Assembly: GCF_000024985.1 (NCBI RefSeq)
Contig: NC_013524.1
Location: 558,001 to 622,000 of the forward strand
Length of the DNA stretch: 64,000 nt
Reading direction: 5' to 3'
Origin: Sphaerobacter thermophilus DSM 20745
Lineage (GTDB): Bacteria; Chloroflexota; Chloroflexia; Thermomicrobiales; Thermomicrobiaceae
Shown here: positions 54,919-63,518 of the stretch, piece by piece
Layout of the letters: every line of letters begins with the position of its first letter
How positions within the stretch are numbered: the first letter of the stretch is position 1
Made by a program: the position numbers and the translations under genes
Notes under the pieces: model-generated
Databases searched by the model: none
What the model saw: the letters and a program-made list of their open reading frames with translations, nothing else
Told to the model about the DNA's origin: nothing

Positions 54919-55779
54919 CTATCGTACCGCAGGCGTGGCAAACAAGCGGCGCCAGCCGCCGCGCTTCGGGGAAAAGACCAGCGCCAGCAGGAAGAAGGCA
55001 CTGGCGACCAGCACGATCGTCCCGCCCGAGGGAACATTCAGGTAATACGACAGATAAAACCCGATCAGCGCCGAGAGGGCGCCGAACCCAGCGCCGAGCG
55101 CCATCATGCGGCCGAAGCGGTTGGTCAGGAGGTAGGCGGTCGCGCTCGGGGTAACGAGCATCGCCACCACCAGGACGACCCCGACCGCCTGCACCGAGAC
55201 GACGACCGTCACCGCCAGGAGCACGAGCAGCAACATCTGCAGCAGCCCGCCGGGCAACCCCGCGGCCTCGGCGACCACCGGGTCGAAGCTGACGAAGAGC
55301 AACTCCTTGAAGAGGGCGAGCACGACCAGCAGCACCAGCGCACCGAGCAGCGCGATCGCCACGAGGTCGGCCGCCTGCACGCCGAGGATGTCGCCGAACA
55401 GGTAGCTGAAGAGATCGACGGTGTAGGTCTGGATCCCGACGCTGGCGAGGACGATGCCCAGGGCGAAGACCCCGCTGAAGAGAATACCGATCGACGTGTC
55501 CGTGCTGATCCCTGCCCGGCGGCTGACAGCGCCGATGCCGAGCGCGGCCAGCACCGCGGCGACCAGCGCGCCCAGGTAGAAGGCGAAGCCGCCGATGAAG
55601 GCCACGACGATACCGGTGAAGGCGATGTGGGCCAGCGCATCGCCGATGAAGGCGAAGCCCTTCAGCACCACGAAGGTGCCGATCACGGCGCAGATGATGC
55701 CGATCAGGATGCCCGCGACGAGCCCCCGCTGGAGGAAGCCGTAGCTCAGCGGCTCGAGCAGCAGGTCAAGCAGTCCCAT
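54919..55779 (-). CDS. Zinc/manganese ABC transporter permease
   Basis: A 286-residue ABC-3 family (ZnuB/MntB) membrane protein with about eight helices. [18 protein letters not shown] and [15 protein letters not shown] are the family signatures, the latter being the ATPase-contact loop. It overlaps the ATPase gene by 14 bases. Last gene of the Fur-regulated minus-strand operon. Confidence 0.92.
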
Positions 55780-56593
55780 GATGGTCGGGGTCCTCCACCA
55801 CGAAGGTCCGCTCGCCCACCCGCAGGAGGAGCAGGTGCGAGCGGAACGTCTCGTTCAACAACTCCTGGGTCAGAACCTCCTCGGGCGGTCCGTAGGCGAC
55901 GACGCGCTGGTTGAGGAGGAGCACCTGATCGAAGCGCTGGGCCACACAGCTCAGGTCGTGCGAGGCGACCATCGCGGTAATCCCGCGCTGGCACAGCCGC
56001 TCCAGCAGCTCGAAGATCTGGTGCTGAGTAACGGCGTCCACGCCGCTGACCGGCTCGTCCAGGAGGAGGATGCTCGGCTCCTGCGCCAGGGCGCGGGCGA
56101 GGAAGACGCGTTGACGCTGCCCGCCCGACAGCTCGCCGATCTGCCGGTCGCGGTACTCCTGCATCCCGACCGCTTCGAGGGCCTCGGTCGCGATCTCGTG
56201 GTCGCGCGCGCGTGGCCGCCGGAGGAACCCGAGCCGCGGCGTGCGGCCCATCAAGACCACGTCGTGGACCGTGACCGGGAAGGACCAATCGACTGTCTCG
56301 GCCTGCGGCACGTAGGCGATGCGCGGGCCGGGCCGGCGCGGCGACCCCTCGATCAAGACGGTGCCGGACCATGGCCGGAGCAGCCCCAGGATCGCCTTGA
56401 ACAGGGTCGACTTGCCGCCACCGTTCGGGCCGATGACACCCACCAACGAGCCGCGCTCGACCGTGAGCGTGACATCCTGCAGCACGGGGTTCTCACGGTA
56501 GCCCGTCGTCAGGTTCCGTACAACGATCGGGGCGGACGTGGCCGGCTCCGCCACGCCGTTGGCGATGGTCGATTGCACCGGCTGCCCCTTCAA
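55766..56593 (-). CDS. Zinc/manganese ABC transporter ATPase
   Basis: A 275-residue ABC ATPase: Walker A GPNGGGKST at about residues 54-62, Q-loop YVPQAETVDWSFP, signature LSGGQRQRVFLARAL, Walker B ILLLDEPVSGVD and the switch His in ASHDLS. It starts with TTG at 56593, overlapping the receptor stop (TTGA), so its translation is coupled to the receptor gene. Confidence 0.92.
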   Translation of the reverse strand: MKGQPVQSTIANGVAEPATSAPIVVRNLTTGYRENPVLQDVTLTVERGSLVGVIGPNGGGKSTLFKAILGLLRPWSGTVLIEGSPRRPGPRIAYVPQAETVDWSFPVTVHDVVLMGRTPRLGFLRRPRARDHEIATEALEAVGMQEYRDRQIGELSGGQRQRVFLARALAQEPSILLLDEPVSGVDAVTQHQIFELLERLCQRGITAMVASHDLSCVAQRFDQVLLLNQRVVAYGPPEEVLTQELLNETFRSHLLLLRVGERTFVVEDPDHHGTA

Positions 56594-57528
56594 CGTAGCC
56601 CCTCCACGACGTGCTCGATATTGGTGCGCATCAGCTCCAGGTAGCCCCCACCCTCGGGTGGCGTCTCGCTGTAGAGCACCTGGGTGGTGATGCCCGCCTC
56701 CTGCGCGAGACGCTCGGCCAGTCTCGGGTTGAACTGCGGCTCGACGAAGAGCACCGGCACCTCCTGTGCCCGGATCTCATCCACGAGCCGCGCCAGATCG
56801 CGGGGCGATGGCTCCCGGCCCGGACTCGGCACGACCACCCCGACCAGCTCCAGCCCGTAGTGCGCCGCGAAGTACGGGAACGCGTCATGGTAGGTCACCA
56901 GCGTGCGCCGCTCGGGCGGAATGGTCGCGATCTGCTCCTGCGCCCACGCGTCGAACGCCTCGATCTCCGCGACGTAGCTATCGGCGTTCGTTCGGTAGTG
57001 ATCAGCCCCGCCCGGGTCGTGCTCACTCAGCCGCTGCTCGATCTGACGCACGTAGGCGATGGCATACGTCGGGTCGAGCCACAGGTGTGGGTTCCCCTCC
57101 GGGTGCTCGTGGTCGTGGTCCTCTTCCTCGATCGTCGTCAAACCCTGTGCCAGCTCATAGACGGGGACCTGCTGGCCGCCGGCCGACTCGATCAGCCCGC
57201 GCAGCCACTCCTCCAGCCCGGCGCCGTTGATGAAGACCAGATCGGCATCGGCCACGGCCTTCGCGTCGGCCGGGGTCGGCTGATAGGTGTGCGGGTCAGC
57301 GCCCGGGGGCACGAGCGCGGTTACGTCGACCCGCTCACCCCCAACGGCCTCCACCATCGAGATGAAGACCGGCAGGCTGACGACGACACGGAGCGCGGCG
57401 TCCTCCCCGGCCGCACTCGACCGGTTCTCGGTCCGCCCGGGGCCGCAGGCAACGAGGAGGAGCGCGGCGAACAGCGCCACAACCACGGGCCACCTACCCC
57501 GGCGGTCAATCCACCGCATCCGCTCCAT
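56590..57528 (-). CDS. Zinc/manganese-binding lipoprotein (ZnuA-like)
   Basis: A 312-residue cluster A-I receptor. The signal ends in the lipobox LLLVACGPG (Cys about residue 28). Metal ligands appear as His in ADPHTYQPTP, His in NPHLWLDP, His in VTYHDAFPYF and the Glu of LFVEPQFNP. A His/Asp/Glu-rich loop EEEDHDHEHPEG at about 134-145 is typical of zinc receptors. ATG 57528 is taken; ATG 57519 is possible. It heads the receptor-ATPase-permease operon, behind a Fur-type operator and next to a fur-like gene. Confidence 0.92.
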   Translation of the reverse strand: MERMRWIDRRGRWPVVVALFAALLLVACGPGRTENRSSAAGEDAALRVVVSLPVFISMVEAVGGERVDVTALVPPGADPHTYQPTPADAKAVADADLVFINGAGLEEWLRGLIESAGGQQVPVYELAQGLTTIEEEDHDHEHPEGNPHLWLDPTYAIAYVRQIEQRLSEHDPGGADHYRTNADSYVAEIEAFDAWAQEQIATIPPERRTLVTYHDAFPYFAAHYGLELVGVVVPSPGREPSPRDLARLVDEIRAQEVPVLFVEPQFNPRLAERLAQEAGITTQVLYSETPPEGGGYLELMRTNIEHVVEGLR

Positions 57529-57576
57529 CCCGATTTCCGCTCTTCCTGCCCACCATGCGACCCGGTCGCCGCGCCG

Positions 57577-57614
57577 CTATTGATACTCGGTATCAATAGT
57601 ACAAGGGATGTCAA
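57577..57614 (-). promoter_or_regulatory. Promoter and Fur/Zur-type operator of the metal importer
   Basis: A 23-base palindrome CTATTGATA-CTCGG-TATCAATAG with 9-bp perfect arms (57577-57599). On the minus strand TTGACA (57609-57614), 16 bases, TACCGA (57587-57592) place the -10 inside the palindrome, so a bound repressor would block the polymerase. AT-rich dyads of this kind are recognised by Fur-family proteins; the adjacent gene encodes one. Confidence 0.8.
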
Positions 57615-57647
57615 GGACGCAGCGGGCCAAGCCGACCAGCCCGCGCC

Positions 57648-58100
57648 TCAGTCAGCGGCGTCTCGGCTCTGGCAATCGGCGCACACGCCGAAGAACTCCA
57701 GCCAGTGCCCCTCGATGCGGAACCGGGTGCGATCGGCCAGCTCGTCGGCGAGGGCAGCGACGTTGCAGCCCTGGAACTCGACGACCGTGCCGCAGGTGGA
57801 ACAGACGAGGTGATGCCGGTGTCCTGGCTCGCGGAGGACGTACCCGTGGCTACCATCGGGGCGATGGACGCGACCGAGCAGGCGCAGGCCGACCAGCAGG
57901 TCGAGCGTGCGGAACACCGTGGCCCGCCCGGTGCTCGAACCCGCGGCGCGCAGTTCGTCGTAGACCTCGTCCGCGGAGAAGGGCATCTCGCGGGCGCAGA
58001 TCGCCTCCACCACCTCGCGCCGCGGGCCGGTGATGCGCAGGCCAACGTCGCGTAGGCTCTCAAGAACGTGTGCCGCGTCCACCGTCGGTACTACCTCCAT
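57648..58100 (-). CDS. Fur-family metalloregulator (probably Zur)
   Basis: A 150-residue Fur-family repressor. The winged helix covers residues 10-90 (GLRITGPRREVVEAICAREM, TGRATVFRTLDLLVGLRLL). GHRHHLVCSTCG and VCADCQ give the structural zinc site (two Cys pairs) and the His cluster for the sensory metal. Its place ahead of a zinc/manganese importer with a His-rich receptor favours Zur; Mur or Fur cannot be excluded. TATAAT lies 9 bases before ATG 58100, so the message is probably leaderless. Confidence 0.87.
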   Translation of the reverse strand: MEVVPTVDAAHVLESLRDVGLRITGPRREVVEAICAREMPFSADEVYDELRAAGSSTGRATVFRTLDLLVGLRLLGRVHRPDGSHGYVLREPGHRHHLVCSTCGTVVEFQGCNVAALADELADRTRFRIEGHWLEFFGVCADCQSRDAAD

Positions 58101-59484: not shown

Positions 59485-60168
59485 ATGGAGCGGACCCACC
59501 TCGACCTGGGCAAACCGGTCGTCGCCGCCGACGGCAAGCGAGTCGGCACCGTCGACCGGCTGGTTCTCGACGCCAACTCCAAGGAGCTCCGGCAGTTCAT
59601 CGTCCGCCAGGGCACACTCCTGACCAAGGACCGCATCATCGACCGCCCGGTGATCGACCGGATCGACCCGGACGGGACGGTTCACCTGAACGTGTCGTCC
59701 GAGATGGTCGATCAGTTCCCCGAGTTCTACGAGGCGAACTTCATCATCCCCCAGGAGGAGGACCTGACCTGGCTTCCACATGCCTGGGTGAGTGGGCAGC
59801 CGATCGAGGGGGCGATCCTCTACCCTGCCGGTGGCTCCTTCGGGCAAGGGTACGATCCGCACGCCGGGGTGATCGAGGCCGCCCCGCTCGACCCGCCGGT
59901 GGTCGAGACGGAGTCGAACCTGAGCACCGACACGGTGCTGATCGACGAGGGCACCAGCGTGGTGGACCGCAACGGGGACAAGATCGGCACGGTCGACGAG
60001 ATCGTCTATGATGAGGACGGCAACGTCGTCGGCTTCGTGGTCAAGGCCGGGTTCATCTTCCACCACGACGTCCGGATCCCGGCCGACTGGGTTGAGTCGG
60101 TCACGACCGATAGCGTACAACTGACCGTGACCGCCGAGGAGGCGGAGCAGGCCGGCACGCACGAGTAG
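59485..60168 (+). CDS. PRC-barrel domain protein
   Basis: A 227-residue protein with two PRC-barrel-like units, residues about 8-75 (LGKPVVAADGKRVGTVDRLV) and about 145-215 (GTSVVDRNGDKIGTVDEIVY). The halves are linked by a segment rich in Pro and acidic residues. PRC barrels act in photosynthetic reaction centres, RNA processing and as stress or storage proteins; here no pathway is indicated. ATG 59485 follows GAAAGGAGATACCCG. It lies 12 bases before an IDI-2-like gene and is probably co-transcribed with it. Confidence 0.8.
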   Translation: MERTHLDLGKPVVAADGKRVGTVDRLVLDANSKELRQFIVRQGTLLTKDRIIDRPVIDRIDPDGTVHLNVSSEMVDQFPEFYEANFIIPQEEDLTWLPHAWVSGQPIEGAILYPAGGSFGQGYDPHAGVIEAAPLDPPVVETESNLSTDTVLIDEGTSVVDRNGDKIGTVDEIVYDEDGNVVGFVVKAGFIFHHDVRIPADWVESVTTDSVQLTVTAEEAEQAGTHE

Positions 60169-60180
60169 GAGGGATGCCGG

Positions 60181-61290
60181 GTGACGGTCCGGTCCGGCCG
60201 CCGGCGCGGCCAGCTCGCCGCGGACGCCCAGTCGGCGCCCAAGGCAGCATCCACCCCGAGGGCCGCACCTGACTCAACGCCCGCGCCGTCCCCGGTGTGG
60301 AGTGCGCTGACGCTACTGCCCAACCCGTTGCCGGAGATCGCCCTGGCCAACGTGGACACGAGTGTCCGCTTCCTGGGCCGGGAGATCAGCCTGCCCGTGC
60401 TCCTGCTCGCGTCGCAACCCAGCGAGGAGCTCGGGAAGTTGGCAGCGCTGGCCCAGTCGCGCAGGCTGCCGCTGAGCATCGGCGACGTTAGCGCGCTCGC
60501 GACCGATCCGGCGCTGCCCGCGTCGCTGCAGGGGCTACGCCTCCGCGCCCCCGACGCCATCCTCCTGGGCGAGATCCCCGCCACCGCGCTGGTGCCGCAG
60601 CCGGATCAAGCCGCCCACGACTTGGACCGCCTGGCAGAAGCGCCCCACCAGGCGGGGCTCAGCGGCCTGATCGTCCGGCTCGACTTCGACCAGGCCGTCC
60701 TCGCGGGCAATTCCACACCGGACGCCACCGGCGCGCTGGACGCGATCGCAGCACTGATCCGCCGGCTGCGCCTGCCGGTGCTCGTACGCTGTGCCTCAGG
60801 GCTCGCGCGCCACACAGCCCGCGGGCTGGTCGAGCGCGGCGTGGCGGGCCTGCTCGTGGCGGGCACCGGCCCCATCCCGACGGCCGCCGGTGGCGGCACC
60901 CCGGCCCCGGAGCAGCCCCAACCCCGCTCACTTGCCACGGTCTTCGCCGGGTGGGGCATCCCCACCGTCGCAGCGATCCGCATGCTCCGCTCCGTCGGCG
61001 CACCGGTCATCAGCGACGGAGCGGTCGAGACCGGCCTGGACGCAGCGAAGGCAATCGCGCTCGGCGCCGACCTCATCGCCCTGACCCCACCGGTGGACTC
61101 CAGCCTCTCCGGCGAGGACGCCCTGGCCGCCTGGCTGGACACCTTCACCGCCGAGATTCGAGCCGCGATGTTCCTGGCCGGCGCCCTCCGCATCGGCGGC
61201 CTCCGCCAGATCCCCTTCGTCGCCACCGGCGAAACCCGCGAGTGGCTCGAAGCCGCCGAATCCCTCTGGCGAACGGACGTGGGGGACTAG
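60181..61290 (+). CDS. IDI-2-like FMN-barrel protein, probably not an isomerase
   Basis: A 369-residue protein with the C-terminal half of type 2 IPP isomerase: WGIPTVAAIRML, VISDGAVETGLDAAKAIALG and AEIRAAMFLAGALRIGGLRQ. Key isomerase residues are changed: the HLN-x2-QE loop reads RLDFDQAVL, so the Mg-binding Glu is lost; the usual MTGG and GSQR motifs are absent; and the N-terminus is a 40-residue Ala/Pro-rich stretch without the RKxDHL motif. GTG 60181 follows AGGAGGGATGCCGG. It could be a flavin protein with another role. Confidence 0.7.
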   Translation: MTVRSGRRRGQLAADAQSAPKAASTPRAAPDSTPAPSPVWSALTLLPNPLPEIALANVDTSVRFLGREISLPVLLLASQPSEELGKLAALAQSRRLPLSIGDVSALATDPALPASLQGLRLRAPDAILLGEIPATALVPQPDQAAHDLDRLAEAPHQAGLSGLIVRLDFDQAVLAGNSTPDATGALDAIAALIRRLRLPVLVRCASGLARHTARGLVERGVAGLLVAGTGPIPTAAGGGTPAPEQPQPRSLATVFAGWGIPTVAAIRMLRSVGAPVISDGAVETGLDAAKAIALGADLIALTPPVDSSLSGEDALAAWLDTFTAEIRAAMFLAGALRIGGLRQIPFVATGETREWLEAAESLWRTDVGD

Positions 61291-61577: not shown

Positions 61578-63518
61578 CTACGTCCCGCAGTGGCTGCCGT
61601 GCCCGTTGGGGTTGACGAGGTGCTGCGGCGGGACGTCGAGCGCCGGGTTGGCGTCGAAGAAGCCGAAGGGCTGGAGCAGGAAGCCGACGTACTGCACCGG
61701 CATCACCGGCCAGTCCTCCAGCCGCACCACGTGGTGCGAGCCGAGCGTGTACCAGACTACGACGTCGGTGTCGACGATTGGACGGTTCTGCGCCGTCCAC
61801 GCCGGCAGGCCCGCACCGCCGGGGTGCTGGTTCGGATAGTCGCCCGCGGCGTACTTCTCCTCCGGCCGGTAGGGCGTGACCCAGACGTGCTTGGTCATGA
61901 ATCCGGCCCGCTGCATCACGCTCGCCGTCGGGTGGGCCATGGGCAGCACGTTCCCGTGGGGCATCAGCCGATAGGCCACCGGCTCACCCACCTTGTTGAG
62001 CGAGTTGTGGTTCACGATCTTCCAGTAACGGGCCGACAGTGGATCGACCACCCGGTGGCCGTCCCCCTCGCGCTCCAACAGGACGGCGTGGGAGCGGAAG
62101 GCGTTGCCGTGCGGGTTGTCCGGCCCGAGTGGCTCGGGCGCGGAGTGGACCTCATAGACCGCGTTGACCGGACCGTCGACGTCGAAGTCGAGCCGGTAGT
62201 TGAAGAAGTGCTGGTGGATCGGGCCGTAGAGACCGTCGGGCGAGAGGAGCTGGCCGTAGGGCGACTTCTGGCCCGGCGGCAGCGCGGCGGTCGAGACCAA
62301 ACCGGTCAGCTTCACCTCGTGCTGGATCGTGCCGTCCTGGTAGAAGTACCAGAAGAAGCCGTACTCGTAGTTGCCGACGGTGGCAATCCAGGAGATGACC
62401 AGCCGGCGGGAGCGTCGTACCTCGGCCGTCTCCAGCCGGAAGTCGTAGTGCTTCCAGAGGATGCCGTAGTCCTCCTCGTGGAGGCAGATCGCGTTCTTGA
62501 TCACGACCGGGTTTCCGTCGGTGTCGGAGAGGACGGCGTCGAAGTAGCGGATCTCGCCCAGGCAGTCGCAGCCGAGCTCCAGCGAGTTGGCCAGCGCACC
62601 GATGTTGTACTCCCCGGCATCGAAGGCGTTCTTGCGCCACTGAGTCGGGGACGGATCGCCGTAGGGCACCACCATCTCGGACAGCGAGGCGCGATAGAGG
62701 ATCGGCCGGACGCGGCCCTTGTCCTCGTAGCCGACGGTGTGCAGCACCAGGCCCTCACGCGCGGTGAAGCCGACGCGGAAGCGCCAGCGCTGCCAGCGCA
62801 CCTCATGGCCGTCGATCACGAAGCTCGGCCCCTGCGCCTGGTGGATCTCCAGCGGCTTGAGGTCGGTCCGCAGCGGGCCGATGGCCTCCGGGCGGTACTC
62901 GCCGGGCGTCTTGGGGACGGGGATGACGCCGTAGTCCTCAACCCGCACGACCTGGTTGGCGTTCAGGTCGAACACGACCACGACGTTGTCGACCGGGTGG
63001 GCGTACCCGTTACCCTCTGGGTCGGGTCGCACCCAGACCAGCGCACGCAGCAGCCGCTGGCCGCGCTCCGACTCGTCGCCGTAGTAGCCGGCCGACCAGG
63101 GCTCGACCATGACCAGGTCGAGGTCGGTGATGCCGCGCTTGCGCATCGCTTCCTGGAAGTCCGGATGCTGCTTGACGACCGACTCGCAGGCGAGGAACTC
63201 ATCGAAGATGATCGGCGGCTGAACATCCGGGACATGCTTCCAGGAGCGGACCTCGCCCGCGGTGATCGACACAACCGCCTCATAGGTGGCACGCTCGGCC
63301 TTATCGAGCACCACGATGAACGCCTCGCGGTCGATCGGGTCGCCCGGCTTGAAGGACTGGACGACGTCCTTGGACGGCTCGTGGAGCGTGATCGAGACGA
63401 TCCGCGCGCTGTCGGTGAGCCCGCGCTGCTCGCGCACGATCTTGCCGGCGGCCGCGATCTCCTCCGGGCCAAGGGGATCCAGCGGATGGCTGACCTGAGA
63501 GCGGACCGAAACTGCCAT
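61578..63518 (-). CDS. Copper amine oxidase (primary-amine oxidase)
   Basis: A 646-residue copper/TPQ amine oxidase that oxidises primary amines to aldehydes with release of ammonia and H2O2. The TPQ precursor Tyr is in VGNYEYGFFWYF (about residue 382). Copper ligands are in PIHQHFFNYRLD (about 435) and in GSHHVVRLEDWPVMP (about 594). The N2/N3 domains precede the catalytic beta-sandwich from about residue 230. There is no signal peptide, so it appears cytoplasmic. ATG 63518 follows GGGAGGAGGTCTGCGTC. It converges on the IDI-2-like gene and is followed upstream by a P-type ATPase, maybe a copper pump. Confidence 0.92.
   Translation of the reverse strand: MAVSVRSQVSHPLDPLGPEEIAAAGKIVREQRGLTDSARIVSITLHEPSKDVVQSFKPGDPIDREAFIVVLDKAERATYEAVVSITAGEVRSWKHVPDVQPPIIFDEFLACESVVKQHPDFQEAMRKRGITDLDLVMVEPWSAGYYGDESERGQRLLRALVWVRPDPEGNGYAHPVDNVVVVFDLNANQVVRVEDYGVIPVPKTPGEYRPEAIGPLRTDLKPLEIHQAQGPSFVIDGHEVRWQRWRFRVGFTAREGLVLHTVGYEDKGRVRPILYRASLSEMVVPYGDPSPTQWRKNAFDAGEYNIGALANSLELGCDCLGEIRYFDAVLSDTDGNPVVIKNAICLHEEDYGILWKHYDFRLETAEVRRSRRLVISWIATVGNYEYGFFWYFYQDGTIQHEVKLTGLVSTAALPPGQKSPYGQLLSPDGLYGPIHQHFFNYRLDFDVDGPVNAVYEVHSAPEPLGPDNPHGNAFRSHAVLLEREGDGHRVVDPLSARYWKIVNHNSLNKVGEPVAYRLMPHGNVLPMAHPTASVMQRAGFMTKHVWVTPYRPEEKYAAGDYPNQHPGGAGLPAWTAQNRPIVDTDVVVWYTLGSHHVVRLEDWPVMPVQYVGFLLQPFGFFDANPALDVPPQHLVNPNGHGSHCGT

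Follow-up and report, generated by a model that had tools for sequence, protein, structure and literature searches.

An IDI-2-like protein without isomerase motifs, conserved in Sphaerobacter and a sister genus and encoded behind a PRC-barrel gene in Sphaerobacter

The closest described system to the gene analysed here is the type 2 IPP isomerase (IDI-2), a TIM-barrel enzyme whose active site has been described for the protein of S. shibatae. According to PMC3509576, the substrate of the S. shibatae IDI-2 lies close to Arg7, Lys8, Ser9, Arg98, His155 and 'Gln161', with Met67/Thr68 located at the flavin N5; the label 'Gln161' is one number off from our own count, in which the Gln is residue 160 and residue 161 is a Glu. 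Counting along our sequence alignment with the solved IDI-2 entries, Arg98 and His155 correspond to Arg104 and His166 in the numbering of the protein described here (window numbering), Ser96, Asn125, Lys193 and Glu161 correspond to Ser102, Asn131, Lys203 and Glu172, and the MTGG loop starts at Met67/Thr68. The Glu of column 172 is the Mg ligand of IDI-2, whilst the FMN is surrounded by Ser102, Asn131 and Lys203, by the GGTS motif and by the S/TGG motif with its second Gly. The locus in question lies in a stretch of 64,000 nucleotides, hereafter termed the window, from the genome of Sphaerobacter thermophilus DSM 20745 (3,993,764 bases, two contigs). It comprises an open reading frame with a GTG start encoding 369 amino acids, which the initial annotation had interpreted as a degenerate IDI-2 coupled to a PRC-barrel gene (Table 1). 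Amongst the titles listed from the open-licence PMC literature on IDI-2/isopentenyl isomerase and on PRC-barrel proteins of Chloroflexi, none refers to this protein.

Table 1. Positions of the IDI-2-like gene, its upstream neighbour and selected features (window coordinates; residue numbers refer to the window protein).
Feature	Position	Strand	Comment or basis
PRC-barrel gene encoding 227 aa with two PRC stretches	59485..60168	+	Pfam
12-base spacer, PRC stop to IDI-like start	60169..60180	+	identical in three Sphaerobacter genomes
IDI-2-like gene	60181..61290	+	residues 1-36 Ala/Pro-rich, low model confidence; 37-365 predicted IDI-2-type TIM barrel without isomerase motifs
W40...TLLPNPLPE52, conserved segment of orthologue family	60298..60336	+	
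Asp102 codon	60484..60486	+	replaces Ser, 119/119 intact rows
Glu131 codon	60571..60573	+	replaces Asn, 119/119 intact rows
HLNxxQE replaced by RLDFDQA at residues 166-172, with loss of the substrate His and of the Glu	60676..60696	+	motif alignment
Arg203 codon	60787..60789	+	replaces Lys, 119/119 intact rows
Phosphate cup, kept in part and containing the new Asp279 (residues 277-297; IS-D279-G280...TGLDAAKAIALGAD)	61009..61071	+	motif alignment

Residues 38–349 of the window protein matched TIGR02151 (IPP_isom_2, NCBIfam) with 131.2 bits vs a curated cut-off of 281.3, and the eight orthologues described below all fell under this cut-off (108.8–139.3 bits). Motifs were compared in an alignment of 127 rows, consisting of the eight degenerate orthologues and 119 intact IDI-2s. 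Only matches retrieved as loci entered the alignment, the underlying sampling having yielded matches in 102/158 class genomes and in 134/400 evenly drawn phylum genomes; the weaker matches outside the alignment may include a further degenerate copy. Prior to counting, L020 was excluded for an internal stop and L022 and L025 for being partial; also removed were L002–L006 and L026–L035, which are short matches or the gene of the window itself, and L065–L069 and L145–L147, which repeat the eight orthologues. The 119 intact rows include apparent double entries with identical motifs (L070/L155, L037/L090 and L042/L080), rows with minor single-motif departures (e.g. L018 MMGG; L036 RKDRQ, TTGG; L082 HINPLHE; L104 MTAG) and one row, L015, whose N-terminus was unreadable in the motif table. 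Across all 119, a single residue was found at Ser102, Arg104, Asn131, Gly133, Gln136, His166, Asn168, Glu172, Lys203, Gly231 and Gly281. Each of these was lost in 8/8 orthologues, except for Asn168, which was kept by the five rows from the sister genus. In the window protein the Glu is A172, the His is R166, the Arg of GSQR is S104, the second Gly of S/TGG is A281, and the Ser, Asn and Lys are D102, E131 and R203, respectively. Taken by function, the substrate and Mg residues (RKxxH, the Arg of GSQR, and the His and Glu of HLNxxQE) were missing in all eight orthologues, and the FMN ring contacts (MTGG, Ser102, Asn131, Lys203 and GGTS) were replaced in all eight, as was the Gly at the second Gly position of S/TGG. 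Gln171 was retained in 7/8, with Glu at this position in L008. The sub-threshold family score and the loss of the catalytic set, including the Mg-binding Glu and the N-terminal substrate site, bear out the initial annotation of a degenerate IDI-2. In our judgement the window protein is very probably no IPP isomerase, the name that similarity-based annotation could give to this gene and that would very probably be wrong.

The IDI-2 barrel fold is nevertheless predicted to be kept. The model of the window protein had a mean pLDDT of 82.1 (input alignment of 29 rows), with values <50 at residues 1–36 and 230–244. Its top 13 PDB entries were all IDI-2 (Z 28.8–34.7, rmsd 2.1–2.7 over 266–321 residues), followed by FMN hydroxy-acid oxidases (Z ~25–26), and a model of the sister-genus protein (mean pLDDT 88.0) likewise had an IDI-2 as best structural match (Z 35.5); this agreement in fold is partly built in, as intact IDI-2 rows were present in both modelling alignments. 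By sequence, the nearest solved structures were also three IDI-2 entries (2zru, 1p0k and 1vcf).

The FMN phosphate site, which the initial annotation had considered preserved, is only partly so: G280, G285, K290 and G295-A296 of the phosphate cup remain, but G281 and the GGTS loop are lost. The retained G280, G285, K290 and G295, together with a Pfam FMN_dh match well over its threshold (52.6 bits vs 24.9, best stretch 178–341), would suit a flavin enzyme that holds FMN in the usual place and performs some other chemistry. Given that the flavin-ring motifs are gone in 8/8 orthologues, however, use of flavin by the window protein is doubtful and we consider such an enzyme improbable. The proposal of a 'flavin enzyme of new function' is thus supported in its second half, for reasons given below, and weakened in its first.

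We investigated the occurrence of orthologues in 61 genomes of relatives and in 158 class genomes that included the same relatives. Eleven matches exceeded 170 bits, namely the eight orthologues, present in 3/3 Sphaerobacter genomes and 5/5 genomes of one sister genus (g4, ~40% identity), and three intact IDI-2s (L013, L015 and L016); the next match scored 128 bits. The family's genera g2, g3, g5 and g6 yielded none. A wider, pattern-based contig scan revealed no further orthologue among the 80 loci listed: the five with at least 38% identity (38–63%) were genes already found, and the remaining 75 had 28–36% identity and intact motifs. In a tree built from 54 of the 127 rows, the seven orthologues included formed one clade (support 100/100), far from the true Sphaerobacter IDI-2 (L001) and beside intact IDI-2s from other families of the order (L013; L015 + L016), although its placement as sister by L013 was weakly supported (82/11), leaving the exact sister unsure, and the tree carried warnings for long branches meeting, an unsettled bootstrap and unlike composition in the three Sphaerobacter rows. 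At E 1e-5, the genomes with L013, L015 and L016 had no TIGR02151 match besides these three. The simple story that we infer is that a Chloroflexota-type IDI-2 lost its isomerase function in the ancestor of Sphaerobacter and g4, and that Sphaerobacter carries a second, standard IDI-2 alongside the repurposed copy.

The IDI-2-like gene is under purifying selection. Within Sphaerobacter, whole-gene dN/dS (Nei–Gojobori) was 0.192 (window vs G001) and 0.389 (window vs G002), with values of 0.206 and 0.493 for the PRC gene, the only comparison gene. By region, dN/dS against G001 and G002, respectively, was 0.147 and 0.194 for residues 251–369, 0.133 and 0.323 for residues 181–250, 0.226 and 0.602 for residues 38–180, and 0.334 and 0.83 for the first 37 residues. 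The fast N-terminal half in Sphaerobacter fits relaxed constraint. Within g4, dN/dS ranged from 0.014 to 0.087 in 9/10 pairs (the tenth being saturated), values that are rough as dS exceeded 1.6 in 8 of the 9. No internal stop was present in any of the eight orthologues, one of which is truncated by a contig end. The initial annotation had offered a structural relic as the other outcome. Read as a decaying IDI-2 on its way to loss, such a relic would agree with the fast-evolving N-terminal half and with the lack of an orthologue found in g2, g3, g5 and g6, but dN/dS well below 1, frames that are open in all eight and identical replacement residues across the distance between the genera (see below) make it very improbable.

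Asp102, Glu131, Pro133, Arg203 and Asp279 were found in 8/8 orthologues and in 0/119 intact rows. Of the strongly conserved columns, 26 were lost in every orthologue, and no more than six of these show the same new residue in all eight (H47P, S102D, N131E, G133P, A160L and K203R); the Asp279 column, occupied by Ser/Thr in intact rows, lies outside these 26. In the window model, D102, E131, R203 and D279 lie where strands 2, 3, 5 and 7 (residues 97–102, 127–133, 200–204 and 276–278) reach their C-terminal ends, or close by. A TIM barrel has its active site at this end, so the four residues probably share one pocket. The two genera are separated by ~2.7 changes per site after their common branch (0.7 + 1.96 in the tree), and retention of this set over such a distance therefore suggests constraint. 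Against this, with a common replacement at only six of the 26 columns, the shared residues could in part reflect plain common ancestry.

A new function, as initially proposed, is supported by the occurrence of the eight orthologues in both genera, by purifying selection on the gene, by the good confidence of the barrel models and by replacements at pocket positions that are identical throughout. On balance, we find it somewhat likely that the IDI-like protein is a re-purposed descendant of a Chloroflexota IDI-2, in which a working new binding site carries out chemistry. The surviving cup at strands 7–8 would hold the phosphate of a new ligand, candidates being a differently posed FMN and some other metabolite that carries a phosphate. 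D102, E131, R203 and D279 would replace the flavin-ring and IPP sites, bind the rest of the ligand and probably act chemically on it, whilst isoprenoid work would be left to the true IDI-2 on the other replicon. What argues against one fully fixed active site is the difference between the genera at residues 166–172, which read RLDFDQA or RLDFDEA in Sphaerobacter vs NLNGIQQ in the sister genus. Provided that the rebuilt pocket is real, nature would here have changed the ligand of a flavin barrel, and intact sister proteins would be available for comparison. The known spread of this putatively re-purposed IDI-2 is narrow. Only tentatively, and as something we consider rather unlikely, we suggest a flavin-free enzyme in which the kept phosphate cup carries a new active site, made up of D102, E131, R203 and D279 and perhaps binding metal, with the PRC-barrel protein as partner of the enzyme. 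Were this true, it would represent an undescribed enzyme family derived from a flavin isomerase through a swap of the cofactor pocket.

The upstream neighbour matched Pfam PRC in two stretches (58.2 bits vs a gathering score of 21.2), and the IDI-like gene follows it after 12 bases, as the initial annotation stated. By position, the two genes probably form one transcription unit. Their translation is likely coupled, since a GGAGG-type ribosome site lies in the spacer directly at the PRC stop codon and the spacer is the same in the three Sphaerobacter genomes. Conservation of the pair is tight in Sphaerobacter, where the genes are adjacent in 3/3 genomes, and loose in the sister genus. There, three genomes have contigs that permit a test, and in each of them a PRC homologue precedes the IDI-like gene on the same strand, at distances of ~1.4–1.5 kb (G017), 7.7 kb (G009) and 11.2 kb (G005). 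Between the two genes lies an IclR regulator (Pfam in G009; by eye in G017 and G005), and in G009 and G005 this interval also contains, judged by eye, a racemase-like gene and genes for ABC transporters. The PRC match of G012 is truncated by a contig end and sits on a different contig, and in G015 a PRC match was not found. This looks like an ancestral pair that was later split by a cassette in g4. A PRC gene was also present in G003, G004, G007 and G013, for which the search gave no orthologue of the IDI-like gene; the surroundings of the PRC gene in G003, G004 and G007 yielded no significant IDI-like match either (best E 0.30).

Contact with other proteins is a known role of PRC domains. As the IDI-like gene is encoded right behind the PRC gene in Sphaerobacter, its product and the two-domain PRC-barrel protein probably act in one process. 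The linkage of the two genes in both genera would also suit a non-catalytic pseudoenzyme, whose barrel serves as a scaffold or ligand sensor through protein contacts, e.g. with the PRC-barrel protein. So would the distribution of conservation across genera, which is highest in the C-terminal part and includes the C-terminal helix, outside the known catalytic motifs (window vs G005 identity: 69/116 for residues 251–366, 17/69 for residues 181–250 and 46/143 for residues 38–180). However, a pure scaffold would have no need for new pocket residues that are charged and invariant in 8/8 orthologues, and the four genomes with a PRC gene and no IDI-like gene found suggest that the PRC protein is independent of it. 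We therefore regard a pseudoenzyme as a credible, yet less probable, explanation than the re-purposed binding site with chemistry.

Several other genes were observed around these loci. In the window, a Fur-family regulator and a cluster for metal uptake (ZnuA/ABC/ABC-3) are found close to the PRC gene (54919–58100), and Fur-like and metal-uptake-type ABC genes were seen by eye near the PRC gene in both G007 and G004 (loci L166, L167). A copper amine oxidase gene (61578–63518, − strand) is convergent to the IDI-like gene. In g4 (L056:10571–13271; also L055, L057 and L058), the IDI-like gene is convergent with a sigma-70 family gene (ECF-type; Pfam in L056), with a small gene that lacks a Pfam match and is possibly an anti-sigma factor, and with SulP-like transporter genes (by eye).

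The initial annotation had also raised the question of a true IDI elsewhere in the genome. Such a gene is present on the other contig (390.9 bits, TIGR02151), and 3/3 Sphaerobacter genomes have both a true IDI-2 and the IDI-like gene. In all three, the true IDI-2 carries a C-terminal UPF0047 domain (L063:10265–11770 in S. thermophilus, G000:C1; L169:107–1612; L170:40–1602), and in S. thermophilus a squalene-hopene cyclase gene (Pfam) starts 124 bases after it (coordinates from our own gene caller). The co-occurrence in 3/3 Sphaerobacter genomes would be expected of a regulatory subunit in mixed oligomers with the true enzyme, as would the oligomeric nature of IDI-2, described as a homotetramer in PMC3509576 and as an octameric form in the title of 3vkj. 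In g4, however, the IDI-like gene is present in 5/5 genomes, whilst a TIGR02151 match over the cut-off was found in 0/5 (two genomes 98% complete, the others 70–87%). A regulatory partner of the true IDI-2 is thus disfavoured and, to us, scarcely credible.

IspH makes both IPP and DMAPP. It was detected in 14/14 genomes tested, with two matches in 7/14 (G003, G004, G005, G009, G012, G013 and G015); both were over the cut-off in six of these seven, and in G015 one was just under. IDI-1 was found over the cut-off in 0/14; the weak matches in 10/14 (up to 39.3 bits) may belong to other Nudix proteins. At E 1e-5, neither G003 nor G004 had a TIGR02151 match. With IspH in all genomes tested, IDI-1 over the cut-off in none and these two genomes without a TIGR02151 match, a replacement IDI in the sister genus is unsupported. 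As the IDI-like gene is the only IDI-2-like gene found in that genus, pathway reconstructions could credit it with an isomerase that is seemingly absent.

Amongst known systems, the window protein is closest to IDI-2 (TIGR02151; 2zru, 1p0k and 1vcf), its best match by both sequence and structure, with which it shares the predicted fold, the domain order, the WGxPT and G..DAAKA...GA motifs and the C-terminal helix, over which the alignment runs through to the end. It differs through the loss of RKxxH, MTGG, GSQR, NLG, HLNxxQE, KExGxG, GGTS and S/TGG and through the new residues D102, E131, P133, R203 and D279. The FMN-dependent alpha-hydroxy acid oxidases (glycolate, lactate and mandelate oxidase), compared by fold score, belong to the same wider FMN-barrel superfamily and rank under IDI-2 in similarity to the window model. 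The nearest intact relatives by tree, their exact order as sisters being unsure, are the intact Chloroflexota IDI-2 subfamily (L013, L015, L016 and L148–L164; KETGAG, mostly ATGG). L013, L015 and L016 share with the window protein the NPLPE/EPLPE start, a PQ insertion and a W-containing end. Unlike the window protein, however, this subfamily keeps the catalytic motifs (as far as readable in L015), and these three members score 353.6–359.5 bits against TIGR02151, over the cut-off.
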